Source of the DNA: an uncultured Saprospiraceae bacterium
Lineage (GTDB): Bacteria > Bacteroidota > Bacteroidia > Chitinophagales > Saprospiraceae
Length of the DNA: 64,000 nucleotides
Assembly: GCA_938028705.1 (NCBI GenBank)
Contig: CALIZI010000229.1
Coordinates: forward strand, 1 to 64,000
Direction: 5' to 3'
This document shows, piece by piece, positions 1,245 to 28,280 of this stretch; position 1 is the stretch's first letter, and every line of letters begins with the position of its first letter. The notes beneath the pieces are model-generated. The model was given only the letters and a program-made list of their open reading frames with translations. It did no database searches and was not told the DNA's origin. The position numbers and the translations under genes were made by a program.

Positions 1245-1331
1245 CCCATTAACCATTAACCGTTAATCATTAACCATTAATCATTGTTAATCATTGGCAT
1301 AATCCATAAAAAATAAATACCTTCACGACTG

Positions 1332-1363
1332 TTAACATTCATTCATAAACAAGAATACATAAA
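1332..1363 (+). promoter_or_regulatory. Degenerate copy of the T6SS upstream dyad motif
   Basis: TTAACAT is followed at fixed spacing by AAGAATACATAAA. In the better copies upstream of hcp and vgrG genes the layout is TTTACAT, then GAAT beginning 21 bases after the first T, then GTATAAG. Here GAAT also begins 21 bases in, but the right half is imperfect. It lies 12 bases before the sigma-region-2-like gene, so it could serve as its promoter or operator. Confidence 0.4.
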
Positions 1364-1374
1364 CAGAAGACAAA

Positions 1375-1626
1375 TTGTCATTGTGGAATACCATACGTGC
1401 AGACGAAGCCAAAGGCATTGAGGAGATATACCGCATAGCCTACTACGCCATTGTCAATCAGCTCAAAGAGCAAGGCAAGACCGAAACACAGGCACGTGCG
1501 TATTTTCAGCAGGCGGTAGTCTTTCTGGCAGAACAAGTCAAAGTAAATGACTTTGACCCTGAGATGGATGTTACACTTTATTTATCAACGGTCATTCAAG
1601 GATTCATAAAGCGTAATAAAAAGTGA
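1375..1626 (+). CDS. Sigma-region-2-like small protein
   Basis: This 83-residue protein starts at a TTG; a second in-frame TTG lies two codons later and no ATG is available. LWNTIRADEAKGIEEIYR followed by YLSTVIQGFIKRNKK resembles region 2 of ECF sigma factors (helix 2.1 and the basic end of region 2.4), but region 4 is absent. It overlaps the full-length sigma gene by four bases (GTGA), so the two are probably translationally coupled. It may modulate the full sigma factor or be an evolutionary remnant. The resemblance is by eye only. Confidence 0.55.
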   Translation: MSLWNTIRADEAKGIEEIYRIAYYAIVNQLKEQGKTETQARAYFQQAVVFLAEQVKVNDFDPEMDVTLYLSTVIQGFIKRNKK

Positions 1627-2363
1627 TAGAGCAGTATCTTATCGGCGAATTGCGAGGCACCAAACTCAAAGAGTTTGAACAACAATTGTACGCCTACACC
1701 CTACCCGATGATCTAGTCATTATCACCTCCTTCAACTTTGAAAGCCAAAGTGCCATTGACATCCTCAAAACCATTTCAAAAACACAAGACCGACTCAAAA
1801 AACAGGATTTCTTTTTCATCGGTCAGCTCAAAAGACGCGAACGTAAAGCACAAACCAGACTATACGACAAGCTATACCCCAAAATCAGAAATCATATCCT
1901 CAAAAACAGTGGCAACGAAGACGATGTACATGACTTCACCCAAGAAGTGATTATTAAACTATACGACAAACTTAAAGGCGACACCAATAAAATCACCACA
2001 CTAGAGGGCTTTGCCTATGGTATCTTGCGAAATATTTGGCTCAAAGAACTCGAAAGAAGAAAACGAATCGGTGAAAAAAACGTAGAATACGGTAGCCAGC
2101 AAGACACCTCAACCGACCCCGACGAGGGCTACGAAGATGACGACGCAGAACAACGCACCCGCATACTACGCGAGTGCATGGACATGCTCAAACCCGACCA
2201 AAAAGACTTTTTGGAATACTACGACCTCCAAAGTCACAACATCAAAGAAACCGCCCTACACTTTCAGCTTGACGAAGTCAGCGTAAGAGTAAGGGCAAAC
2301 AGATGCAGAAAATACCTCAGAAAAAAACTCATAGAACACCCCGAATACGACCAATACTTTTAA
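1623..2363 (+). CDS. ECF-type sigma factor with an extra N-terminal adaptor
   Basis: A 246-residue protein starting at GTG. Residues ~80-155 look like sigma region 2 (LYPKIRNHI, DVHDFTQEVIIKLYDKL, FAYGILRNIWLKELERRKR) and ~190-240 like region 4 with a helix-turn-helix (MLKPDQKDFLEYYDL, IKETALHFQLDEVSVRVRANR). The first ~60 residues are not usual for ECF factors and begin IEQYLIGEL...FEQQL, a motif typical of the N-terminus of Bacteroidota anti-sigma proteins. The next gene, an Hcp fusion, begins with the same motif. The likely role is transcription of the T6SS genes downstream. Confidence 0.8.
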   Translation: MIEQYLIGELRGTKLKEFEQQLYAYTLPDDLVIITSFNFESQSAIDILKTISKTQDRLKKQDFFFIGQLKRRERKAQTRLYDKLYPKIRNHILKNSGNEDDVHDFTQEVIIKLYDKLKGDTNKITTLEGFAYGILRNIWLKELERRKRIGEKNVEYGSQQDTSTDPDEGYEDDDAEQRTRILRECMDMLKPDQKDFLEYYDLQSHNIKETALHFQLDEVSVRVRANRCRKYLRKKLIEHPEYDQYF

Positions 2364-2591
2364 AAGTTCATAGTTCATAGTCAATGGTTCACAGTCAATA
2401 ATTAAAACACAACACAATATTAATAAATTCATTCATTCAAAATTCACTCATTCACTCATTGATTACCATTATCGCATTCTAACATTAAAGCATTACAACA
2501 TTGATAACGATTCATTCATTCAAAATTCAAAAATTCATTCATTCAAAAAATATTATCACATTCTAACATTAAAGCATTACAACATTAAAAA
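2364..2591. repeat. Low-complexity leader with a duplicated 35-bp word
   Basis: The gap before the Hcp fusion is built from short repeated words (TTCATAGTCAATGG, ATTCATTCATTCAAAATTCA). A 35-bp segment at 2468-2502 recurs at 2552-2586 with one mismatch and contains TCTAACATTAAAGCATTAC. The second copy ends just before the start codon. No promoter consensus is evident. Confidence 0.7.
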
Positions 2592-3293
2592 ATGTCTGAC
2601 CAACAAGTAAATATAGACGACTACATCAAAGGCAGAATGGACGCTCCTGCTGCTGCGGCATTTGAATCACAAATGGCGGGCAACCCTGCGCTTGCCGGTG
2701 AAGTTCAAGGTCAGTCCCAAGTGATGAATGCACTTGAAGAAGCCGGTAATCAGGAAGTTAAAAGTCAGATAGCAGCCGTCAGTCAGGCTGCACAAACCCA
2801 AGCCAAACCTCAAAAAGAAGATACACCCGCCCCGAAAAAAGACAAACCAAAGAAAGCAACCAAAACAAAATCCGGTTCAGCCGCCGTCATCAAAATCATT
2901 TTCAGAGTCGATGGTAAAGAAGCTGAAGTTATCCGCCTATCCTACAATTTCATGCAATACACCGACCAAATCGGACAACTTGCCAGCGAAGTCACAGGCG
3001 GTCTCATTCACGTCTCCCTCGGCTCCCTCGGCGACCCTTCACGTTTTGCATGGGCAGTCACCTCCGACATGAAAAAATCCGGCGAAATCGAGTTCATCGG
3101 TTCCCACGGCAAAACCCTCAAAACCCTCAAATTCGAGGATGCCTACTGCGTCGCTTACACCGAAGAATACGAAGCCTTCACCGGAGGCAACTCCGGCATA
3201 GTCACCATCAAAGACGGCGCAACAGAACACCTCACCCTCTCTGCAAGAAAAATCTCCATCAACGGAGAATCACACGAAAATACTTGGACCTAA
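2592..3293 (+). CDS. Hcp/TssD tube protein fused to an anti-sigma-like N-terminus
   Basis: Residues ~97-233 form a complete Hcp-type domain that aligns along its length with the two shorter Hcp proteins downstream (FRVDGKEAEV, GWAVTSDMKK-type AWAVTSDMKKSGEIEF, KTLKTLKFEDAYCVAYTE.YEAFTGG, and a C-terminal HENTW). About 96 extra residues precede it. The first 35 (IDDYIKGRMDAPAAAAFES...NPALAGEV) match the helical N-terminus common in Bacteroidota anti-sigma proteins, followed by a Gln/Ala stretch and a Lys/Pro linker. It sits directly downstream of a sigma factor gene. The fusion could let tube assembly or secretion report on sigma activity. The Hcp call is firm; the regulatory role is inference. 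Confidence 0.88.
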   Translation: MSDQQVNIDDYIKGRMDAPAAAAFESQMAGNPALAGEVQGQSQVMNALEEAGNQEVKSQIAAVSQAAQTQAKPQKEDTPAPKKDKPKKATKTKSGSAAVIKIIFRVDGKEAEVIRLSYNFMQYTDQIGQLASEVTGGLIHVSLGSLGDPSRFAWAVTSDMKKSGEIEFIGSHGKTLKTLKFEDAYCVAYTEEYEAFTGGNSGIVTIKDGATEHLTLSARKISINGESHENTWT

Positions 3294-3520: not shown

Positions 3521-3600
3521 AACACGTCAGCACTACAACACATCAACACATCAACACCACAACACCACAACACTTCAACACACTTTCTCCAAAATTCACT

Positions 3601-4137
3601 GTTAACATCATGCCTACAATAGGTATGTATAGGTGTAAGTAAAACAGAAAGCTGTTACCGTTCCTGACTTATTGAAAAAGACATTTTAGTATAAAAAACA
3701 GCATGATACTAATGAGTTGATAAATAAAATAATCAACATTACGAATCTATATTTTTTTTGTATAAAAGTGTTTACATTTTAAAAAAGAAAGGAATATATA
3801 AGTGAAAATACAACAGAAAGCTGTTAGCATTCTTGACTTTATTGAAAAGACATTTTAGTATAAAAAACAGCCGGATACTAATGAGTTGATAAATGAAATA
3901 CTCAACATTACGAATCCATAATTTTTTTATAAAAAAGTGTTTACATCATCCAAATAAAAAGAATGTATAAGTGAAAATAAGACAGAAAGCTGTTATCATT
4001 CTCCAATCATTAAAAAAAATACTTATTGCAAAATAATTCGAGTATAATTAGTTGATAATGAAATAGAAAATCAAAATTATAACTCAACAAAATTTTCCAA
4101 AAGTGTTTACATTTTTAACCCAAAGAGAATGTATAAG
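3601..4137 (+). promoter_or_regulatory. Tandem array of ~168-bp regulatory units before hcp
   Basis: Four evenly spaced copies of a motif start at about 3602, 3771, 3940 and 4106. Each has TTTACA (TTAACA in the first), exactly 20 bases, then TATAAG or TATAGG. The three units between them also share ACAGAAAGCTGTTA, GACATTTTAGTATAAAAAACAG and ACTAATGAGTTGATAAAT, decaying in the last. TACAT and ATGTA within the motif are inverted half-sites about 21 bp apart, two helical turns. The last copy lies 53 bases upstream of the hcp start. It is probably a multi-site operator or array of promoters. Confidence 0.75.
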
Positions 4138-4189
4138 TGGAATGTCAATTATAACAAATCATATTTTTAAACTAATAAATTAAGTACTC

Positions 4190-5644: not shown

Positions 5645-7642
5645 ATGGCAACAGCAATAACAAACATTTCTGTAGGGTCCAAAACAATAGACCCCTACCA
5701 CGTTTCTGTTCAACAAAGAACCGACTCCCACCATCAATTTGAAATTGCCGTTTCTTCCGAAAAAATAGAGGGAGAAAACAGCTTTTCTATTGACAAATCT
5801 ATCTCCTACATCGGTGAACCTATTGAGATTACTATACAGTCCGGTGAGAATACCTTCAACTTTAAAGGGATTATCACAACGGTTAATCTAGATAGAACTC
5901 ATGCCGGCGATAGTCTAGTTATTCTTTCCGGTTATAGCCCAACCTATATGCTGGAAGACGGTGTAGGTATTAAGTCCTATTCAGGAAAAACTATCGCAGC
6001 GATTGTTCAGGAAATATTAGACCAATATCCGGTCAATCTACTCAATCCTATCATAGACCCAAAATATAAAAAAGTCATTCCTTATATTGTTCGATACAAA
6101 GAGACGAATTACCAATTTCTGCGCCGCCTTGCCACTACTTATGGTGAATGGTTTTATTATGATGGTCGGTCGGTTATTTTTGGAAAACTACCCAATCCCG
6201 ATAATATAGAACTCACATTAGGCAAAGATTTAAACTCCTTTGATTATGGTGCCAGTATGCGTCCATATAAGTCAACAGAAATATTTTATGACTATAAAAC
6301 AAACAGAACACTCGAAAAATCAACAGCAAATTTCAAACCGATTGGCTTAGATAAATATGGGAAAAAAGCTCTAAGTGCTGCGGATAATATTTTCCCGAAT
6401 CAACCTGTTAACACTGTTCGGAATGATACTCAAGACGACGCTCACCTCAAACATTTGGTAGAGGTACAGAAGGCAGCTGTCATAAGTAATATCACATTTT
6501 TCAATGGGCAAAGTCAAAACCCGGGTATTACGGTTGGCAGTAGAATTGGAGCAACTGCCACCAAAAAAGTAGGAAACAAAAATATCTCTGACCTTATCGG
6601 AAGATTTCGGATACTTAGCGTTAATCATCAGGTTAGCTCCGATAAAAATTACACCAACAGTTTTAAATCTATGCCGGTAGCATTATCTGCCCCACCGAGT
6701 GCAGGTGGCGGTGGAACTCACAATAAGATGAAAAACTATCCAAGCAATCTTACAAAAAGCACAGGGGCATTCAGTCCATATGGTGACGAAACTGACGCTC
6801 CGTCTCCGTCAGATGATACTACACCAGATCCCCGTCCAGAACCAGCTCCAACAATAGCAGTTGTCATGGACAATAATGATCCGGAATGTCTGGGTAGAGT
6901 TCGTGTGCAATTCAAATGGCATAAGGAAGGTGAGATGTCTCTTTGGATACGTCAGGTAACACTTTATGCGGGTCTTGAACGAGGGGTTTATTTCGTTCCC
7001 GAGATTGGTGATGAAGTATATGTGGATTTTGAGGATAACGATACTAAAAGACCTTATATGCTAGGTGCAGTTTATAGCCAGGAGACAGCACCGGAGTTTT
7101 TCGATGCCGATAATAATATCAAATCCATCAAAACCCGTGGCGGTCACTTGATTAAGTTTTCGGATGAGGAAGAAGCGGAGAGCATTACCATCACAGATAA
7201 AAACGGCAATCATATCATCATAAATACGGCAGAGAATTGTATAAATGTCAACGCAGGAGCAGATATAACCGTTAATGCCGGAGGCAATATGACCTTCGAA
7301 GCTGGTGGGAATATGAAGTTCGAGGCTGGAGGGAATGTCAATTGGGGTGTTTGTGGTAGCATTAAAAGAAACGTTGGGGTTAGTGTTGCTACAAAAGCAG
7401 GAGCTAGTTTTGAAGTTATTGCTGCAAGTAAGGCACATATTATTGGGCAAGGCAACGTGTTACTCAACTCAGGCGCATCAGTATTGTTCCTTTTACCTCC
7501 GGGCATCGCGAATATGGCGGCGATTATCTCGGCAGGTGTTACGAGCGGTATATACACCCCTGTCATTGGTGGTTTAGCCACACAGATTTTAGGAGGAAAA
7601 ATAGTGAAAGTAAATGGGGCCGAAGTAGCCGTTAATTCTTAG
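5645..7642 (+). CDS. vgrG: T6SS spike protein VgrG/TssI, island 1
   Basis: A 665-residue spike protein. Residues ~1-345 are gp27-like (KTIDPYHVSVQQRTDSHHQFEI, PYIVRYKETNYQFLRRLA.TYGEWFYYDG). An OB domain follows (AVVMDNNDPECLGRVRVQFKW, GVYFVPEIGDEVYVDFE), then a beta-helix of short repeats (VNAGGNMTFEAGGN). It differs from the other two VgrGs in two ways. A Ser/Gly/Pro/Asp-rich linker of ~45 residues lies before the OB domain, and after ~600 there is a hydrophobic Gly/Ala/Ile-rich tail (LFLLPPGIANMAAIISAGV). Codon use is more AT-rich than in island 2. The tail could be tip packing or a membrane-active extension. Confidence 0.95.
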   Translation: MATAITNISVGSKTIDPYHVSVQQRTDSHHQFEIAVSSEKIEGENSFSIDKSISYIGEPIEITIQSGENTFNFKGIITTVNLDRTHAGDSLVILSGYSPTYMLEDGVGIKSYSGKTIAAIVQEILDQYPVNLLNPIIDPKYKKVIPYIVRYKETNYQFLRRLATTYGEWFYYDGRSVIFGKLPNPDNIELTLGKDLNSFDYGASMRPYKSTEIFYDYKTNRTLEKSTANFKPIGLDKYGKKALSAADNIFPNQPVNTVRNDTQDDAHLKHLVEVQKAAVISNITFFNGQSQNPGITVGSRIGATATKKVGNKNISDLIGRFRILSVNHQVSSDKNYTNSFKSMPVALSAPPSAGGGGTHNKMKNYPSNLTKSTGAFSPYGDETDAPSPSDDTTPDPRPEPAPTIAVVMDNNDPECLGRVRVQFKWHKEGEMSLWIRQVTLYAGLERGVYFVPEIGDEVYVDFEDNDTKRPYMLGAVYSQETAPEFFDADNNIKSIKTRGGHLIKFSDEEEAESITITDKNGNHIIINTAENCINVNAGADITVNAGGNMTFEAGGNMKFEAGGNVNWGVCGSIKRNVGVSVATKAGASFEVIAASKAHIIGQGNVLLNSGASVLFLLPPGIANMAAIISAGVTSGIYTPVIGGLATQILGGKIVKVNGAEVAVNS

Positions 7643-9427: not shown

Positions 9428-9570
9428 ATCATAACGTATATAACTCAAATTTCGGATAGATCCGTACTTGTGAAAGTTTCAAATAATTATTTATTTAAAA
9501 TTATTTCCACCCTAAACACCTCATTATCAACAGCTTAATTTACGCTCAACTTAAATTTAAGCCTAAAGGT

Positions 9571-9603
9571 GTTTACATTTCCACAATAAAAAGAATGTAT
9601 AGG
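9571..9603 (+). promoter_or_regulatory. Upstream dyad motif before vgrG2
   Basis: GTTTACATTT, then AAAAAGAATGTATAGG, has TTTACA and TATAGG exactly 20 bases apart, as in the array before hcp. TACATT and AATGTA are perfect inverted half-sites. It lies 114 bases upstream of vgrG2. The remainder of the 9428-9716 gap is AT-rich with nothing else recognised. Confidence 0.65.
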
Positions 9604-9716
9604 AAATTCCAGGCATCAAGTATTTAAATCCCAAATATTGATATTACCCACACCTGATTTCATCTTATTGAAATTTGTTTTTTAAATTTTGGTGCTTGTA
9701 TTAAAAAAATACAATT

Positions 9717-11573
9717 ATGGCAACAGCAAAAGCAAATATCATTGTAGGTGGCAAAAAAATAGACCCCTACCACGTATCTGTCCAACAGAGATGCGACTGG
9801 CATCATCAATTTGAGATTGCCGTTTCTAGCGAAAAAATCGAAGGACCCAACAGTCTCAACATTGACAAATCTGTAGAGTACGTTGGAGAATCTGCGGAAA
9901 TTTCCATACAATGTGCAGATGGTAATTTTCAGTTCAAAGGACTGATTACGGGCGTTCACATTGACCGCAGCTATACGGCAGACAACCTGATTATCCTTTC
10001 AGGATACAGCCCCACCTACCTGCTTGAGGATGGCGAAGGCACTAAATCCTACGAGGAAAAAGACCTTGCTGCCATTGCCAATGAGATATTGAGTACGTAT
10101 CCGGCTAACTTACTCAACGCCAATATTTCGCCCCAATACACCACGCCCATACCTTACGTCGTGCGTTACAAAGAAACCAACTATCAGTTTCTTTCCCGCC
10201 TTGCTGCCGCCTATGGCGAGTGGTTATTTTACGATGGTCAATCTATGATTTTCGGCAAACTCCCCAATCCCGAAAGCATCACCGTTACATTGGGTAAAGA
10301 TTTGGCATCCTTTGATTATGGTGTCAACATGCGCCCGTCCAAATTCAAATACCAATTTTACAACTATCAGGAAAACCGGACTTTGGAAAACACCTCCACA
10401 AGTTTCAAACCCGGCTGGCTGGACAACTACGGCAAAAAAGCCCTCGACGCTGCCGACAGTCTTTTCCCCTCCGAACCCCTCAATCCTACTTGGCAAAACA
10501 CGCCCAAAGATGCGGTTATCAAACACTTGGTGGAAGCCCGAAAGTCCTCTGTTCTCAGCGATAGCACCTTTTTCAAGGGGCAAAGCACCCACGCAGGAGT
10601 CAGCGTAGGCGGCAAAATACTCGCCAAAGGCATCAACAAAACAGGCGGAAAAAACGTAACGGGTGTCATTGGCAATTTCCGCGTTACTTCCGTCACGCAC
10701 CACCTTGATGCCAACAAAAATTACAGCAATAACTTTGAGGCAATACCTGTAACCGTCACCGCACCTCCGGTCAACAAAAACGCCTTCAAACCCGAAGCCG
10801 AATCACAAGTTGCGGTAGTCAAAGACAATAATGACCCCGACCAACTCGGCAGAATACGGGTACAATTCAAATGGCAAACAGGCAACGAAATGACCCCGTG
10901 GATACGCCAAGCCACCAACCATGCAAGCAGCGACAGAGGCATATACTTTGTTCCCGAAATCGGTGACGAGGTATATATGGATTTTGAGCAGGGCAATCCC
11001 GACCGCCCATACATGACAGGTGCAAAGCATCATGCCAAAACCAAACCCGAATTTTTTGATGCCGACAATAACCTCAAATCCATCAAAACCCGTAGCGGAC
11101 ACAACATCCTGTTCAACGATGAAACGGGCGGCGAAACCATTACCATTACAGACAGAAACGGCAATCAAATTCTCATTGATACCGTAGGCAACAATATGAC
11201 CGTCACTGCACTCGAAACCATGAATTTCAATGCAAAAAATATGAATTTCGAGGTCGGTGAAAATGTCAATTGGAACGTAGGACTGGACGAAAACAAAACT
11301 ATCGGGCAAAACAAATCCACCAATATAGGCAACAGCATGGAAGCCATTGCCGGCAACGTAGTAGATATGGTCGGACAAAACCAAGCCAATTTCACAGCCG
11401 GTATGGGCAACAGCCTAAACCTTGCTGCAAGCGGCACAGCGGACCTCTCCGCGACCAATCACGTTGGAGTGGCATCAAGCGGTTCTATCTCCCGCCAAGC
11501 CGGAAGCGGCATCAGCGACGATAGCAGCGGACCCATCAAAATATGTGGTCCCGATGTAGGTATCAATTGCTAA
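9717..11573 (+). CDS. vgrG: T6SS spike protein VgrG/TssI, island 2
   Basis: A 618-residue VgrG. It has a gp27-like N-terminal half (KKIDPYHVSVQQRCDWHHQFEI, YVVRYKETNYQFLSRLAAAYGEW), an OB domain (AVVKDNNDPDQLGRIRVQFKW, GIYFVPEIGDEVYMDFEQGN) and a C-terminal beta-helix of short N/G/M repeats ending in a Ser/Gly-rich, disordered-looking tail. It is much closer to VgrG3 than to VgrG1. VgrG trimers sit at the end of the Hcp tube, and their tip binds PAAR proteins. A dyad motif upstream links its control to hcp. Confidence 0.96.
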   Translation: MATAKANIIVGGKKIDPYHVSVQQRCDWHHQFEIAVSSEKIEGPNSLNIDKSVEYVGESAEISIQCADGNFQFKGLITGVHIDRSYTADNLIILSGYSPTYLLEDGEGTKSYEEKDLAAIANEILSTYPANLLNANISPQYTTPIPYVVRYKETNYQFLSRLAAAYGEWLFYDGQSMIFGKLPNPESITVTLGKDLASFDYGVNMRPSKFKYQFYNYQENRTLENTSTSFKPGWLDNYGKKALDAADSLFPSEPLNPTWQNTPKDAVIKHLVEARKSSVLSDSTFFKGQSTHAGVSVGGKILAKGINKTGGKNVTGVIGNFRVTSVTHHLDANKNYSNNFEAIPVTVTAPPVNKNAFKPEAESQVAVVKDNNDPDQLGRIRVQFKWQTGNEMTPWIRQATNHASSDRGIYFVPEIGDEVYMDFEQGNPDRPYMTGAKHHAKTKPEFFDADNNLKSIKTRSGHNILFNDETGGETITITDRNGNQILIDTVGNNMTVTALETMNFNAKNMNFEVGENVNWNVGLDENKTIGQNKSTNIGNSMEAIAGNVVDMVGQNQANFTAGMGNSLNLAASGTADLSATNHVGVASSGSISRQAGSGISDDSSGPIKICGPDVGINC

Positions 11574-13453: not shown

Positions 13454-14482
13454 ATGATGCCTGAAGGAAAACTGATAGCCGTCCAAGGTGCAACAATCTC
13501 CTGTCGAAACTCGACGGTACTTGGTATGCCCACCTCAAATATTCTAATCAGCACCAGTGATGTAGAGACCTGCTGTTGCGAAAATTCTATCCTGACCATC
13601 AATGATGACGGTGTAGGCATAAATATAAGACCATTTCAGGGTTGCCGCCTGACATCCAACAAAAGATGCCGTCCGACCCCAATGGTAGCCGGAGGTACGG
13701 GATGGCGAAAGTATGCCCAGCCTTTTGCTGATATAGATGAGGAAATCCTGACCGAAGATTCCTATTTTGTCTGTGCCATCGGAATGAATATAGTGAAAAT
13801 TTCAGACCCCGGACAAGAGGATTTGAGGGTGGGCGATGAGCTTTGTGACAGTGAATTTTATGACTTTATTCAAGCAGCAGACGAAGCTTTCGGCCCCTTA
13901 TCGGACGAGCAACTCGAAAATATCAAAACGATTATTGATACATTTATAAGATTAGGAGACGGGGATGTTAATAAATTAGCTTATATTTTGACCACTGTTC
14001 GACACGAAAGCGGTTTTTATAGCATTCGCGAGCAGACAAGATTCTGGGCAGGCGAAACGAATATCTCCGACGAGTTGGCAAGAGCCCGTCTGGGTAATGC
14101 CAGATACGCAAGAGTTGATCCGGTGACCGGACAGGCTTACTACGGACGGGGATTTGTACAACTCACATGGAAAGATAATTATGAAACAATGTCTGCTTGG
14201 TTGTCCAACGAATATAACAGAGAAATAGATTTGGTTAATAATCCTGATTTGATGTTGACCAATCCTGAATACGCCGCAGCAGCCACAGTATATGGTATGA
14301 TGGAAGGGTCTTATGCAGGTGATGGAAATGGACTTGATTATTACATTAATAGTGAAAATACAAACAATCCCGATTTTGTGGGAGCAAGATATACCGTCAA
14401 CGTTCAAGATAAAGCACATGAGATCGCTGGAAATACAGAGATTTTACTGGAAGAATATCAAGAACTCCAACTTCTGCCCTAA
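13454..14482 (+). CDS. PAAR-like tip fused to a GH19-like peptidoglycan hydrolase (T6SS effector)
   Basis: A 342-residue protein. Residues ~1-125 are PAAR-like, with scattered Cys pairs, RCRPTPM, LTEDSYFVC and DPGQ, matching the small tip protein of island 1. Residues ~150-330 resemble chitinase/lysozyme family GH19: YILTTVRHESGF with a likely catalytic Glu, RFWAGE, YYGRGFVQLTWKDNYE, and PDLML.NPEYAAAATVYGMMEG. Injected into the periplasm of a target, it would cleave wall glycans. No gene with a signal peptide follows, so the immunity protein is not adjacent. The start is one of two adjacent ATGs. Confidence 0.85.
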   Translation: MMPEGKLIAVQGATISCRNSTVLGMPTSNILISTSDVETCCCENSILTINDDGVGINIRPFQGCRLTSNKRCRPTPMVAGGTGWRKYAQPFADIDEEILTEDSYFVCAIGMNIVKISDPGQEDLRVGDELCDSEFYDFIQAADEAFGPLSDEQLENIKTIIDTFIRLGDGDVNKLAYILTTVRHESGFYSIREQTRFWAGETNISDELARARLGNARYARVDPVTGQAYYGRGFVQLTWKDNYETMSAWLSNEYNREIDLVNNPDLMLTNPEYAAAATVYGMMEGSYAGDGNGLDYYINSENTNNPDFVGARYTVNVQDKAHEIAGNTEILLEEYQELQLLP

Positions 14483-14559: not shown

Positions 14560-14689
14560 CTTGTTGCTAGTTGTCTCGGTGCTACCTTTAAGTTATTAAT
14601 TTCCCGCTTCGTTCCTAATTTTCCAGAACAAAAAAAATGAGTTTCAGAGATATTTCTTCTCCAATATTGAGAAAAAAATTATAGTATCT

Positions 14690-14721
14690 GTTTACATTTC
14701 AAAATAAAAAGAATGTAAAGG
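14690..14721 (+). promoter_or_regulatory. Upstream dyad motif before vgrG3
   Basis: GTTTACATTT, then AAAAAGAATGTAAAGG. TACATT and AATGTA are again inverted half-sites, here with the right half one base closer (19 rather than 20 bases between TTTACA and TAAAGG). It lies about 120 bases before the vgrG3 start, the same distance as at vgrG2. Confidence 0.6.
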
Positions 14722-14842
14722 TAAAATCCTAAGTATAAACATATCAGATTCCAAAATCAAATTGACTGATAACCACGTCCGGTTTCGCTCTTTAGAGCTC
14801 ATAAATTTGCATTTTGGTGTTTGTATCAAAAAAAATATTGTT

Positions 14843-16663
14843 ATGGCAACAGCAAAAGCAAGCGTTATTGTCGGCGGCAAAAAAATAGACCCGTACCACT
14901 TATCTGTCCAACAGAGATGCGATTGGCATCACAGGTTTGAAATTACCGTTTCTACCGAAAAAATCGAAAGCATAAACAGCCTCAATGTTGACAGTTCGGT
15001 GAGCTACGTCGGTCAAACGGCTGATTTATCCATTGATTGTGCCGGCGGTACATTCAAGTTTAAAGGCTTGATTACCGGTGTGCATATCGACAGGTCTTAT
15101 ACCGGCGATACCTTCGTAGTGCTTTCCGGCTATAGCCCCACTTACCTGCTCGAAGACGGTACAGGCGTGAAATCTTACGAAGAAAAAGACCTCTCTGCTA
15201 TTGCCAACGAAATACTCGGCACCTATCCCGCCAATTTAATCAATCCCAATGTCTCGCCACAATACACCACACCTATACCTTACGTGGTGCGTTACAAAGA
15301 AACCAATTATCAGTTCCTTGCGCGTCTTGCTGCGATTTACGGTGAATGGTTTTACTACGATGGTGAAGGATTGGTATTCGGTAAATTGCCCAATCCCGGA
15401 AGTGTGACAGTCACTTTGGGTAAGGATTTAGACTCCTTTGACTATGGTGTACAAATGCGTCCGTCGAAATTCAAATATCAATTTTACAATTACCTCGAAA
15501 ATCGCATGGTGGAGAATACCTCAACGAGCTTCAAGCCCGGTTGGTTGGATAATTACGGTAAAAAAGCCCTCGATGCGGCAGACGGCATGTTCCCCAACGA
15601 ACCCACCAACCCCGTATGGCACGATGCGCCCAACGATGCACTTATCAGACACTTAGCCGAAGTACAAAGAGGTTCGATATTGAGCGATACCGCATTTTTC
15701 AAAGGACAAAGCACCCACGCAGGCATCAAGCCGGGCGGACGCATACAAGCCAAAGGCATCAACAAAATCGGTAAAGCAAATGTACTCGGAATGATTGGCA
15801 ATTTCCGAATAACAGCCGTCACGCATCACTTGGATGCCAATAAAGATTATCGCAATACCTTCGAGGCAGTTCCTGTTACCGTCACCGTTCCGTCTGTGAA
15901 CAGACATGTCGTGAAACCGGAAGCGGAATCGCAAGTCGCAGTGGTCAAAGAAAATAACGACCCCGACAAACTCGGACGCATACGGGTACAGTTCAAATGG
16001 CAAACAGGCAATGAAATGAGTCCTTGGATTCGCCAAATTACCAACCATGCAAGTGGTGACAGAGGTATCTATTTTGTACCCGAAATCGGCGACGAAGTCT
16101 ATATGGATTTTGAACAAGGCAATCCTGACCGCCCCTATATGGTAGGCGCGAAATATCACGCCAATACGCCACCCGAATTTTTTGACCCTGACAATAATTT
16201 GAAATCCATAAAAACCCGTAGCGGACACACCATCTTGCTCAATGACGAAGCAGGAGCGGAGACGATAACCATTAAAGATAAAAATGGTAATCAGATATTA
16301 ATAGATACCGAAGGGAATAATATGACAATTACGGCATTGGAGACCATGACGCTGAATGCCAAGAATATGACGATTAATGTGGGGGAAAGTATGACGACTA
16401 ATGTGGGAGAGAATATGACTACAACGGTAGGTAAAAATATCAATAAAAGTGCGGGAGAAAATATGTCTGATTCTGCCGGAAAATCAATCAGTAAACAGGC
16501 AGGAGAGAATATAGGTATGACTGCCCAAAACTCCATTAATGCCACGGCTATGTCCGAAACTTTAATTAAGGGGAAAAGCAAAGTACAGGTAGGAGGACGC
16601 GATATTCGTGTCAATGGAGGAAGTACGATCAGAATTAAATCAATGGATACAGATGTACATTAA
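14843..16663 (+). CDS. vgrG: T6SS spike protein VgrG/TssI, island 3
   Basis: The start was set at the ATG at 14843 rather than 14762 because MATAKASVIVGGKKIDPYH matches the starts of the other VgrGs. This gives 606 residues: a gp27-like half (HLSVQQRCDWHHRFEITV), an OB domain (KENNDPDKLGRIRVQFKW, FVPEIGDEVYMDFEQGN) and a regular beta-helix needle of 8-9-residue repeats (NVGESMTTNVGENMTTTVGK). The stop is nine bases before the Hint-nuclease effector gene, so the two are in one operon and the spike is probably dedicated to that effector. Confidence 0.96.
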   Translation: MATAKASVIVGGKKIDPYHLSVQQRCDWHHRFEITVSTEKIESINSLNVDSSVSYVGQTADLSIDCAGGTFKFKGLITGVHIDRSYTGDTFVVLSGYSPTYLLEDGTGVKSYEEKDLSAIANEILGTYPANLINPNVSPQYTTPIPYVVRYKETNYQFLARLAAIYGEWFYYDGEGLVFGKLPNPGSVTVTLGKDLDSFDYGVQMRPSKFKYQFYNYLENRMVENTSTSFKPGWLDNYGKKALDAADGMFPNEPTNPVWHDAPNDALIRHLAEVQRGSILSDTAFFKGQSTHAGIKPGGRIQAKGINKIGKANVLGMIGNFRITAVTHHLDANKDYRNTFEAVPVTVTVPSVNRHVVKPEAESQVAVVKENNDPDKLGRIRVQFKWQTGNEMSPWIRQITNHASGDRGIYFVPEIGDEVYMDFEQGNPDRPYMVGAKYHANTPPEFFDPDNNLKSIKTRSGHTILLNDEAGAETITIKDKNGNQILIDTEGNNMTITALETMTLNAKNMTINVGESMTTNVGENMTTTVGKNINKSAGENMSDSAGKSISKQAGENIGMTAQNSINATAMSETLIKGKSKVQVGGRDIRVNGGSTIRIKSMDTDVH

Positions 16664-16672
16664 TCAATAGTT

Positions 16673-18319
16673 ATGTCAGAACCATTAGCATATGTAGTAA
16701 CAGGTGCGCTCATTAATTGCGACCAAGGGGCTGCCGTCCTACCTTTTTTATGCACCAGTAATCTCTCTACGAAAGTGGGTGGAATATTGGCTTCAACTGA
16801 ACTGGACAAAGCTCCGGTAGTTAATATACCAAGCTTTGTTATGTGCCAAGTTGACCTCAAACCTTGCACACCACTTACAATGGTAAGTGAATGGCAAGAT
16901 ACAGGCGAAGAGTTCTCTACTGTAAATGGATTAGACCCCTTACTATTCAAAAGTTGTATTAACTGTACTAAAGGCGGTAAAATCAGTTTTCTCACTACCG
17001 GGCAACTGCCCTTGTCACAATTGGACCCTACCGGAGAGTTAGAAAAACAGATTAATGAAATCAACGAAGAGGCTGATAAAATGAAAGAGGAATACGAGCT
17101 TGCAGAAGAGGCTGTGGGGGCACCGGGTTTCTGGGAAAGTTTGATTCCTCTTTGGGGTAGTGGGCGAGAAACCGTGAATGCCTACCAGCAAAAGAAATAT
17201 GGATGGATGGTATTCCATGGTCTCATGACAGTAGCCGACGTTGCAGGCGGATTTCTGATAAAAGGATTATTTAAAGCAGGTGCAAAGGGAGTTGGAGCAA
17301 CCATAGGAAAAGAAGCATTGGAAAAACTCGTGCAGGGTTTTACGAAAAAATTTGCGACGATGATGGCTGCCAAACAACTTCTAGTAAAAACAGCCAAGGA
17401 AGCCTTTGAGCAGACTTTCAAAAAAATCGCAGCAATTGACGGTATCTGCCTTGTTAAAGCCTGTTTTGTGGAAGGTACTGAAATTGCTACCGAAGACGGA
17501 ATTAAGAAAATCGAGGATATTAAAAACGGAGATTTGGTATGGGCATATAGTCCTGAAACCGAAGAGACAGGATTAAAAGAAGTGGTACAAATTATTCAGA
17601 ATGAAGTAGATACAACCATTGAACTACTCATTAACGATGAAATTATTGAAACCACCTCTCCACACCCTTTCTATACCAGAACAGGATGGAAAAAGGCAAA
17701 ACATCTGACGACCGAAGACCAAATAAAAACCAAAAATGATGAGTGGGGACTTATCAAATCCATTTCTATTATAAAGAAAAGGAAAAAAGTATATAACTTT
17801 GAGGTCAAAGATTGGCATACTTATTTTGTGGGTACTTGGCAATGGTTGGTTCATAATGCAAGGGCTTGTTTATATGCAGCATTTAAGAACGGAGAACAAT
17901 GGGCAATAAATATTATGCGGGGAATTAACTACAACCGTAAAATTAATCAGGAGATGTTGGAACTTGCCGGTGATAAGGGGGTACAGTATTTTTCCGAAAC
18001 GTGGCTGAAAGAAGGTGGCAAACTTGTGGCGAGAGTTGACGGGTACATTCCAGGTAAGGCTATCATAGAACGGAAAGCTACTAACCTCGGTGAAATTACC
18101 ATCGAGACCGCTAAAAGTTATATCAACCAACTGGCTACCAAATACGCCCCCGGTGCCGCAATTGCCAACCCTGCCAAAGGAACTGCGTTGGCAGGTCAAC
18201 AATTTTTACAGGTTGATACCATTGGTAATGTTTCACAAGAAGTCCTTGATTATGCAGCAAAAAAAGGCGTTACTATTGTAGAATCATCCGACGAAATATT
18301 CAAAGCAATTGGTTTATAA
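16673..18319 (+). CDS. PAAR-like / Hint / PD-(D/E)xK-type nuclease effector
   Basis: A 548-residue polymorphic toxin. Residues 1-~111 are a DUF4280/PAAR-like tip (ALINCDQGA, VVNIPSFVMC, CTPLT, CINCTKGGKISF). Residues ~112-260 are helical with a small hydrophobic patch. A Hint autoprocessing domain runs from Cys264 (CFVEGTEIATEDG, KNGDLVWAY, TTSPHPFYT) to HTYFVG..QWLVHNA near residue 396. The C-terminal ~150 residues carry RVDGYIPGK and IIERKAT, consistent with the D...ExK core of restriction-type nucleases. Hint cleavage would release the nuclease in the target cell. The next gene starts immediately after the stop. Confidence 0.87.
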   Translation: MSEPLAYVVTGALINCDQGAAVLPFLCTSNLSTKVGGILASTELDKAPVVNIPSFVMCQVDLKPCTPLTMVSEWQDTGEEFSTVNGLDPLLFKSCINCTKGGKISFLTTGQLPLSQLDPTGELEKQINEINEEADKMKEEYELAEEAVGAPGFWESLIPLWGSGRETVNAYQQKKYGWMVFHGLMTVADVAGGFLIKGLFKAGAKGVGATIGKEALEKLVQGFTKKFATMMAAKQLLVKTAKEAFEQTFKKIAAIDGICLVKACFVEGTEIATEDGIKKIEDIKNGDLVWAYSPETEETGLKEVVQIIQNEVDTTIELLINDEIIETTSPHPFYTRTGWKKAKHLTTEDQIKTKNDEWGLIKSISIIKKRKKVYNFEVKDWHTYFVGTWQWLVHNARACLYAAFKNGEQWAINIMRGINYNRKINQEMLELAGDKGVQYFSETWLKEGGKLVARVDGYIPGKAIIERKATNLGEITIETAKSYINQLATKYAPGAAIANPAKGTALAGQQFLQVDTIGNVSQEVLDYAAKKGVTIVESSDEIFKAIGL

Positions 18320-25778: not shown

Positions 25779-28280
25779 ATGGCACTCACTATTCAAAACT
25801 TCGACTTAGGCAGCAAACTTGCCGTAGAAATCGCACAAAAACTCGCTAAAGAACATGCTCACGCTACCTTCGGCGCATCGCATCTGATGATGGCATTGCT
25901 CAATGAGCGCGTTGGTATCACCAGCTTTCTCTCCTTGATGGATAAAGACCTCAGCTACCTCAAAGGTTGGGCGCAATATCGCATGGACGAATACCGCACC
26001 AAGGGCTTGCCCGACGACACGCCCGAAGCCGACGAAGATGCCCGAAAGGTACTCGACGTAGCCCGCACTTTCCAACTCATGTTCAATCAAGGACATATCA
26101 CGCCTGTTTGCATACTTGCGGCACTTACCCGTCCGGGTGTAGGCTTTCCGAAAGGTCAAATGGGCAGCCTCCGACTCACCGAAGACGAGTTGGTACAAGC
26201 CGTACTGAATGATGCTTCATTTGGTGAGGCAGTTGCCGGTAGTAATGGCAATACTAGCTCGTCTGCCCCCGCTTCTGCGCCTTCCGGCAAACATTCCGCC
26301 GAAAATACAAAGGCATTTTTGACCTATTGTATTGATAAAATTGCATTGGCAAAACAAGGTAAAATCGACCCCATTTTCGGACGCGATAAGGAGATTGGGC
26401 AAATGGAAAATATCCTTTGCCGACGCACCAAGCCCAATGTCATCATTACAGGTGAACCGGGCGTTGGAAAGACCGCTTTGGTTGATGGTTTTGCCCTCAA
26501 AATCGCTAACGGTGAGGTCAGTGAATATTTTAAAGAAGCTAAATTGTTTCAACTCGATATTGGCGCACTCGTAGCGGGTGCGGCGTATCGCGGCGAGGTA
26601 GAAGACCGTTTGAAAAAGATATTGACCGAAATCAAACGCATGGATAAATTGATTTTATTTATTGATGAAATCCACATGATTTTGGATAAAGACGGCGGCG
26701 CAAAAGGCATCGCCAATCTCCTCAAACCCGAACTTGCACGAGGCGAAATCAACGTCATCGGCGCGACGACGAACAAGGAATATCGTATTTACTTGGAAAA
26801 AGACGCAGCATTTAGCCGTCGCTTTGAAGTGATACGAGTGGAAGAACCGAGCGTACCGGGCGCGATTAAGATGATGAGTGGTTTGAAAAATTTGTTTGAA
26901 GACCACCATAATTTCAAAATCGAACACGAAGCCGTCAGCGAAACCGCCAAACTCGCCAAGCGATATTTCCCTCAACGCCGCTTGCCCGATTCTGCCATTG
27001 ATTTGATGGATAGAACCATGTCTTCCTTCCGAATTTTGGAGGACAATCTCGCGCCGCGACTCGAAAAAACCAAAGCCGCTTATGCCGAAATGCCCAAAGA
27101 CGCGGAGACAAAACAATGGGAAGAATTTTGGACGGAAGCCGTCAATACGCTCTCGCCACTCGCCCTCGAAACCATTGATGTAAAAGCCCCTGAACCACAA
27201 AGTGATGCCGCCACATGGACGGCGTACATTGATGAAGTATTCGTAGAATTGGACAAAGAAGCCGCCAAAAATCGGGAAGAAATCAGCACCGACGATGTAG
27301 GCGCAGTCGTGGCAGAAGCAACGGGCATTCCCATCGGCAAGCTGCAAGGCGACGAACAAAAGAAACTCCTTGAACTCGAAAACATCCTGACTTCCAAGGT
27401 GATAGGTCAAGACCATGCGGCGGAAATTATCTCGCGTGCCATCAAGCGCAGTCGCTCCGGCATGAAGGAAAAGGGCAAACCAATTGGCAGCTTCTTCCTC
27501 GTCGGACCAACGGGTACGGGTAAAACCGAACTTGCCAAAGCCATTACCGATGTCTTGTTTAATGATAAAAATAACCTCATACGTTTTGATATGTCGGAGT
27601 ACATGGAATCGCACTCGGTATCCATGCTCAAAGGCTCGCCTCCGGGCTACGTGGGTTACGAAAACGGCGGTATGTTGGTCAATAAATTGCGCGAGCAACC
27701 CTATGCGGTGGTTTTGTTTGATGAAATAGAAAAAGCGCATCCCGATGTATTCAAACTCTTCCTCCAAATCCTCGACGAAGGACACCTCACCGATACGCTC
27801 GACAAGAAAGCGAGTTTTGCCGATACGGTCATTATTTTCACCTCGAATGTAGAGAGCGAATGGGTCGTCAATGAGTTTGACAAAGGCGAAATGCCCGACG
27901 AAGACGAACTCAAAGAACGCATGATGGCAGGCAGACATTTCAAACCCGAATTTATCAATCGTCTGGATTCGGTGATACCATTTTCGCCCTTGTCGAAAGA
28001 TAATTTGGTCAAAATTCTGGACATCCAACTCCGTATTTTCTCCAAACTCCTCCACGAACAAAAAATGACCCTCGAAGTCAGCCCGGAAGCCAAGACTTTC
28101 TTGGTGGACAAAGGCTACTCCCCCGCCTTCGGTGCGCGTCCGATTAAGCGCGTAATTGACAGCTATTTAGGCGATAAAATCTCGGAATTGATTATCGTTG
28201 GGGAGATTCAGAAAGGGCAGCATATTTCGGTTGGCTTGGATGGGGAGGAGTTGACTTTTGCATCGGCAGACGTAGCGTAA
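25779..28280 (+). CDS. tssH: T6SS sheath-recycling ATPase ClpV/TssH
   Basis: An 833-residue AAA+ protein of the ClpB/ClpV type. It has an N-domain with Clp repeats (HAHATFGASHLMMALL), a first ATPase module with Walker A GEPGVGKT at ~225 and Walker B LILFIDEIH, and a middle region shorter than in ClpB. The second module has GPTGTGKT at ~576, VVLFDEIEKAHPDVF and a C-terminal GARPIKR sensor. ClpV unfolds contracted sheath for reuse. Its presence with TssE/F/G and VgrG marks a true T6SS rather than an extracellular contractile system. Confidence 0.95.
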   Translation: MALTIQNFDLGSKLAVEIAQKLAKEHAHATFGASHLMMALLNERVGITSFLSLMDKDLSYLKGWAQYRMDEYRTKGLPDDTPEADEDARKVLDVARTFQLMFNQGHITPVCILAALTRPGVGFPKGQMGSLRLTEDELVQAVLNDASFGEAVAGSNGNTSSSAPASAPSGKHSAENTKAFLTYCIDKIALAKQGKIDPIFGRDKEIGQMENILCRRTKPNVIITGEPGVGKTALVDGFALKIANGEVSEYFKEAKLFQLDIGALVAGAAYRGEVEDRLKKILTEIKRMDKLILFIDEIHMILDKDGGAKGIANLLKPELARGEINVIGATTNKEYRIYLEKDAAFSRRFEVIRVEEPSVPGAIKMMSGLKNLFEDHHNFKIEHEAVSETAKLAKRYFPQRRLPDSAIDLMDRTMSSFRILEDNLAPRLEKTKAAYAEMPKDAETKQWEEFWTEAVNTLSPLALETIDVKAPEPQSDAATWTAYIDEVFVELDKEAAKNREEISTDDVGAVVAEATGIPIGKLQGDEQKKLLELENILTSKVIGQDHAAEIISRAIKRSRSGMKEKGKPIGSFFLVGPTGTGKTELAKAITDVLFNDKNNLIRFDMSEYMESHSVSMLKGSPPGYVGYENGGMLVNKLREQPYAVVLFDEIEKAHPDVFKLFLQILDEGHLTDTLDKKASFADTVIIFTSNVESEWVVNEFDKGEMPDEDELKERMMAGRHFKPEFINRLDSVIPFSPLSKDNLVKILDIQLRIFSKLLHEQKMTLEVSPEAKTFLVDKGYSPAFGARPIKRVIDSYLGDKISELIIVGEIQKGQHISVGLDGEELTFASADVA

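Follow-up and report, generated by a model that had tools for sequence, protein, structure and literature searches.

To our knowledge, how a cell senses that its T6SS has fired and that its parts need restocking is an open question. The locus described here holds a candidate for such a gauge. It lies at the start of contig C229 in the 8.0-Mb genome of an uncultured Saprospiraceae bacterium, of which a stretch of 64,000 nucleotides, hereafter the window, was analysed. Positions 1375-3293 comprise three genes on the + strand: ORF1, the sigma factor gene ORF2, and the Hcp fusion gene ORF3 (Table 1). A preliminary description of this stretch had given its frames and coordinates correctly, as the reading of the ORFs confirmed, and had placed the fusion behind an ECF sigma gene, which also holds; but it counted two genes instead of three, having missed the separate 83-aa ORF1 (1375-1626), and the sigma gene begins only at 1623. 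The GTG start of ORF2 overlaps the stop codon of ORF1, and ORF3 (2592-3293) is a single unbroken frame of 233 residues. The segment between the sigma and fusion genes (2364-2591) is built of short CATTCATTCA-type repeats, which are missing from the related genomes G001 and G299, where the two genes overlap.

Table 1. Features of the regulatory operon and of the T6SS genes downstream, in window coordinates.
Feature	Position	Strand	Evidence
ORF1, stand-alone sigma-region-2-like, 83 aa, TTG start	1375..1626	+	hhalign, TIGR02937, pN/pS
ORF2, ECF-type sigma factor, 246 aa, GTG start	1623..2363	+	Pfam, TIGR02937, Foldseek
ORF3 residues 1-69, anti-sigma module	2592..2798	+	NF052375, hhalign, gene order of homologues, AF2
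ORF3 residues 70-97, Lys/Pro/Thr-rich linker	2799..2882	+	Low pLDDT, no secondary structure
ORF3 residues 98-233, TssD/Hcp tube domain and stop	2883..3293	+	PF17642, PDB fold match
Promoter-like motif CTGTTAACAT-N-GAATACATAAACAG, 8 nt before ORF1	1329..1366	+	PWM 27, in training set
Four promoter-like motif copies (3599, 3768, 3937, 4103), about 168 nt apart, before hcp	3599..4140	+	PWM 35-43
hcp/TssD, stand-alone, 141 aa	4190..4615	+	PF17642, 1.1e-32
Second hcp/TssD, 141 aa	4857..5282	+	PF17642, 7.2e-33
VgrG	5645..7642	+	Phage_base_V, 2.2e-22; Phage_GPD, 3.4e-15
Promoter-like motif before second vgrG	9569..9606	+	PWM 39.4
VgrG	9717..11573	+	Phage_base_V, 3.6e-22
Promoter-like motif, spacer 1 nt shorter, before third vgrG	14688..14724	+	PWM 36.8, untrained
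VgrG	14762..16663	+	Phage_base_V, 3.4e-22

In the C-terminal part of ORF3, the Pfam TssD family PF17642 matches residues 100-233 with an E-value of 1.6e-30 and covers model positions 3-128 of 128, bearing out the earlier statement that the Hcp domain is complete. The AF2 models, built on six sequences, are of low confidence (pLDDT 64 and 69); that of ORF3, with a mean pLDDT of 64, consists of three helices, a disordered linker, and an Hcp barrel. The closest PDB fold for its Hcp part is F. johnsoniae Hcp1 (6bdc; E 3.5e-10, TM 0.81 by target), and B. fragilis Hcps are also found among the PDB matches. By its complete PF17642 domain, ORF3 belongs to the Bacteroidota TssD/Hcp proteins, with putative formation of hexamers and tubes.

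The N-terminal part had been described as anti-sigma-like, and several lines of evidence agree with that description. The NCBIfam model NF052375, named 'anti-sigma factor', matches residues 10-90 (E 1.6e-4); the score of 21.7 bits lies below the whole-protein cut-off of 100, as would be anticipated for a fusion, and only the N-terminal part matches. The same model matches three of the four module relatives that were scanned, two of them clearly and one weakly. The profile-profile comparison, which had been proposed as a check on the idea, gave clear similarity between the ORF3 module and 20 sigma-adjacent module proteins (hhalign probability 99.3 over 64 columns). A profile made from six fusion N-termini located the module in 95 of the 299 genomes of the order, where its homologues make up a large family, mostly of membrane-anchored proteins, within Chitinophagales. 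An ECF sigma gene lies directly upstream of 24 of the 27 non-fusion module genes that were fetched when a strict test is applied. Of the three that fail it, one overlaps its sigma gene, one has a sigma-like gene in divergent orientation, and one has its sigma gene farther upstream, so that inspection raises the count to 26 of the 27. Positions I8, D9, K13-G14-R15-M16, F24, M28, L34, A35, and V38 are invariant among the fusion modules, in which AF2 places helices at residues 8-12, 18-30, and 32-69. A coincidence of short motifs as the source of the anti-sigma likeness is ruled out by the profile search and the gene order. On homology, gene order, and the NCBIfam match, the N-terminus of ORF3 is thus a genuine anti-sigma module.

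ORF3 differs from its relatives in what follows this module. Most non-fusion relatives carry a hydrophobic segment at about residues 80-110 and then a variable C-terminal domain, such as TPR, trypsin-like, or WG repeats. We looked for a transmembrane segment and an extracytoplasmic sensor in ORF3 by hydropathy and encountered neither: the peak hydropathy is 0.8, compared with about 2 or more in most relatives, and the linker and Hcp domain occupy the position of the hydrophobic segment. The linker (residues 70-97) has a pLDDT of about 31-45 and no secondary structure in the AF2 model. ORF3 therefore shares with the membrane-anchored anti-sigma factors of Chitinophagales the N-terminal module and the place behind an ECF sigma gene, but as judged from its sequence it is a soluble variant and departs from the classical, membrane-bound form of the NF052375-like anti-sigma factors.

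Six genomes from two families (G000, G299, G300, G301, G302, and G001) share the order of ORF1, sigma gene, and Hcp fusion, with gene overlaps of the ATGA/GTGA type in several of the six operons. Of five other genomes of the genus, four (G299-G302) have all three genes, the fusion of G301 being cut by the contig end; the fifth, the 69% complete G303, gave no match. In G001, which belongs to another family, the sigma factor is about 50% and the fusion 33% identical, the two genes overlap by ATGA, and an ORF1 homologue lies upstream (L064, 5259-5498). An assembly artefact as the source of the fusion is ruled out by its presence in six genomes. Purifying selection acts on each of the three genes (pN/pS 0.10-0.49; 0.18 for the Hcp part). 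Among 395 genomes drawn across the phylum, the module was found on a TssD in this genome only, and ordinary TssDs in those genomes align only from about profile position 86-119 onward. Hcps fused to toxic domains are known as specialised effectors (PMC13323088), and ORF3 resembles them in having an extra domain on Hcp; it might accordingly be a modified tube subunit or cargo carrier, whose N-terminal region is a passenger or adaptor that has lost its role in sigma binding. We give this reading very little credence, because the supposed passenger is an anti-sigma module that immediately follows a sigma gene in all six genomes, with invariant positions, and because Pfam and NCBIfam returned no toxin family match to the N-terminal region. 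Compared with the effector extensions, the extra domain of ORF3 is N-terminal and apparently regulatory instead of a toxin.

ORF2 qualifies as an ECF sigma factor, as it contains sigma regions 2 and 4 without region 3 (Sigma70_r2, 8e-8; r4_2, 9.7e-6) and matches the sigma70-ECF model TIGR02937 with an E-value of 3.8e-18. Foldseek with its low-confidence model retrieved ECF sigma factors, including those in the sigmaE-RseA and BldN-RsbN complexes. ORF2 has an N-terminal extension of about 60 residues, the first 22 of which resemble the start of the anti-sigma module (residues 2-22 against the anti-sigma set, hhalign probability 95.2). This copy of the first helices of the module on the sigma factor (IEQYLIGELRGTKLKEFEQQL; 1623-1690 in the window and 6206-6270 in L064) occurs in each of the six genomes, perhaps as the remnant of a former anti-sigma joined to a second sigma factor, or perhaps as a self-inhibitory arm.

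ORF1 aligns to the ECF sigma set over 74 columns with an hhalign probability of 96.8, matches TIGR02937 weakly (E 0.062), and gave no useful match in a Pfam scan. Its start codon is TTG in five genus members and ATG in G001. A chance reading frame is ruled out, since ORF1 is conserved across the six genomes and its pN/pS stays below 0.5 (0.23-0.49). As a sigma look-alike, ORF1 recalls the PhyR-NepR-EcfG partner switch (PMC8999054) and could, speculatively, compete for the anti-sigma module as a decoy in the manner of PhyR/NepR, although it differs from PhyR in having no receiver domain.

The connection between this sigma factor and the T6SS comes from a promoter-like motif common to the sigma operon and the T6SS genes, which the preliminary description had overlooked and which a motif search uncovered. 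The consensus, STGTTWACAT-N16-ATRTAWARGTG, occurs ahead of the sigma operon, hcp, vgrG, and tssBC, both in this genome and in related ones. Upstream of hcp there are three exact copies of TTTACAT-N19-TATAAGTG, and none occurred in 100 shuffles. A PWM derived from nine sites, six in the window and three before an hcp of G300, gives scores of 27-43 at seven sites in the window, each of them ahead of the sigma operon, hcp, or vgrG, whereas the rest of the window never exceeds 9 and the shuffle maximum is 11.9. The fourfold repetition at 3599-4140 has the appearance of tandem promoters, perhaps for high output, and three copies likewise precede the G300 hcp. Because of its spacing and its position just upstream of the near-leaderless ORF1, the motif fits a promoter. 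The Bacteroidota housekeeping promoter consensus includes TAnnTTTG, which the motif lacks, and identification with that promoter is ruled out.

Sites outside the training set extend the pattern. They lie 7-13 nt before ORF1 in G299, G300, and G302, and about 4 nt before it in G001, where the site is weak (score 14); in G301 the -35 half is the only clear one, and before the sigma operons the -10 half is degenerate. Untrained sites also precede vgrG (G302 at 9613 and 14644, G300 C238, G000 C256 at 10172, and the window at 14688) and hcp (G302, and two in G001), and another lies upstream, by 240 nt, of the tssB-like/tssC operon in G000 C256, whose TssC is assigned by Pfam (2.2e-96) and whose tssB is named from position and length, with no family match. 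With at most one mismatch, seven genomes contain 17 sites genome-wide, 14 of them before hcp or vgrG, 7 of which had served to derive the motif; the other three precede a small conserved gene of the C256 T6SS cluster, a hydrolase-like gene next to the sigma operon of G300, and an unassigned gene. These genome-wide searches used two spacers, of which the version one base shorter captures sites of the 14688 type. At two mismatches the search was swamped by background, and at three the counts did not rise above the control in most genomes.

A few genes other than hcp, vgrG, and tssBC lie behind the motif. It precedes by 32-42 nt the gene of a conserved protein of about 71 residues (MAKAYRFDDSKPPMG...) at G000:C256:1406 (L116) and G302:C3:11293 (L097), the G000 copy being located inside the T6SS vgrG cluster. 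In G300, the hydrolase-like gene just before the sigma operon (L078, 2077-2793) has no Pfam match and the motif 68 nt upstream, and is a possible effector. In L090 (G302:C105), the motif lies 66 nt before the gene of a 206-aa protein resembling a peptidoglycan amidase by eye, possibly a T6SS effector outside the main clusters.

The shared motif, which also precedes the operon of the sigma factor itself, supports a link of ORF2 to the T6SS. We infer that ORF2 reads the motif because the motif precedes its own operon, a habit that is common but not universal among ECF sigma factors. It is conceivable on this account that the sigma gene merely adjoins the T6SS without controlling it and that another sigma factor reads the shared motif. 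We regard this as highly improbable, considering that the motif at one mismatch or fewer is concentrated at T6SS genes genome-wide, that five genomes have it 4-13 nt upstream of the operon, and that sigma factor and motif co-occur in two families.

The T6SS genes downstream of the operon comprise two stand-alone hcp genes and three vgrG islands, which carry DUF4280/PAAR-like, chitinase-like, and HINT proteins together with Imm11-type immunity candidates, and a ClpB/ClpV-type ATPase is encoded at 25779. At 13454-14482 and 16673-18319, DUF4280 (PAAR-like) is joined to a chitinase-like domain in the first protein and to a pretoxin-HINT domain in the second; both are likely effectors of the T6SS, and candidate immunity genes lie close by.

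Taken together, a probably self-activating, T6SS-dedicated sigma factor with its anti-sigma placed on a tube subunit is well supported by the sequence comparisons. ORF2 would transcribe the operon that encodes it together with the consumable T6SS parts, namely hcp, vgrG with its effectors, and tssBC. ORF3 would be the anti-sigma of ORF2, with a tube subunit replacing the membrane anchor and extracytoplasmic domain of its relatives. As long as the fusion is free in the cytoplasm, its module would hold the sigma factor; once the Hcp domain has been taken up into Hcp rings and the tube assembled and fired, burial or ejection of the module would free the sigma factor and the spent parts would be replaced. 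Since the restraining module rides on the tube subunit, the state of the tube would set the amount of free anti-sigma, and we favour release on assembly or firing because the regulon consists of the parts that firing uses up. We infer that the module binds ORF2, that the fusion enters tubes, and that the sigma factor is thereby freed instead of held. On balance, we lean towards ORF1-3 being a T6SS-dedicated regulatory operon in which a tube-borne anti-sigma frees the sigma factor on assembly or firing. A tentative elaboration, more doubtful than probable, is that the tube subunit itself is the anti-sigma, so that each shot removes repressor and counts the firing, the parts are re-made, and the ORF1 decoy tunes the threshold.

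The same sequence evidence would serve a negative inventory sensor, in which a build-up of unfired Hcp stabilises the fusion or displays it on free rings, the sigma factor is held, and firing dilutes the repressor. In V. cholerae, Hcp represses its own T6SS by binding the activator VasH, high Hcp levels repressing expression (Manera et al. 2021, as cited in the review PMC10482370). There too, a regulator of T6SS transcription reads the intracellular Hcp level directly; the difference is that plain Hcp binds a sigma54 activator, whereas here the module is covalently attached to a dedicated Hcp beside an ECF sigma factor. Mixed Hcp rings are possible, given the B. fragilis Hcp2-Hcp3 heterohexamer (PDB 9vne). 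The sequence does not set the sign of the effect, and firing lowers repression in both the inventory and the release models, which differ mainly in whether assembled, unfired Hcp represses. We consider an inventory sensor rather unlikely.

The Hcp domain of the fusion is more diverged than the stand-alone Hcps, with 66% identity to its neighbours and 35% or less in G001, in a comparison that disregards the G302 fusion row, which was read out of frame. Such divergence is equally compatible with a minor or terminal ring subunit and with one that does not assemble, and the diverged domain might stay out of tubes. If every subunit carried an N-terminal domain of about 95 residues, this could also collide with the sheath or take up too much room in the lumen of the tube. 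The faster divergence, strong in G001, would suit a constitutive soluble anti-sigma, whose Hcp domain is a mere hexameric scaffold or stabiliser without any link to the state of the tube, and a hexamer would trap the sigma factor effectively. However, the Hcp domain has stayed complete, purifying selection acts on it, and the regulon motif is located before precisely those genes that encode the product mimicked by the fusion, all of which makes a constitutive anti-sigma quite improbable in our assessment.

The logic of tube-dependent release recalls other secretion machines. In the flagellum, the anti-sigma FlgM is coupled to export by the flagellar machine, and its partner sigma28 controls the genes of that machine. 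The same holds for BtrA-BtrS in the Bordetella T3SS, where the anti-sigma is tied to export by the sigma-controlled machine (PMC10732220). FlgM and BtrA are free substrates of flagellar and T3SS export, whereas the anti-sigma here is fused to the building block of the T6SS tube, with putative export. The comparison of ORF3 with FlgM is a fair lead as a functional analogy, and no homology is claimed. An ECF sigma factor dedicated to the T6SS is known from Xanthomonas citri, where EcfK-PknS resembles the present case in that dedication but relies on kinase activation and has no Hcp fusion (PMC13147305, PMC8999054). Our search of the open-licence literature for an anti-sigma/Hcp fusion found nothing relevant, and the Bacteroidota T6SS literature found describes the parts and reports no such regulator. 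The earlier remark that no T6SS was known to be so regulated stands with respect to the fusion, but feedback from the Hcp level is known from VasH (PMC10482370).

The candidate restocking gauge would be a single gene, which places an anti-sigma domain on a tube subunit beside the gene of a sigma factor. ORF3 and ORF2 offer a directly testable switch for contractile injection, of a FlgM-like or an inventory-like kind, and their arrangement suggests that the cell ties the making of its spear parts to the state of its spears.
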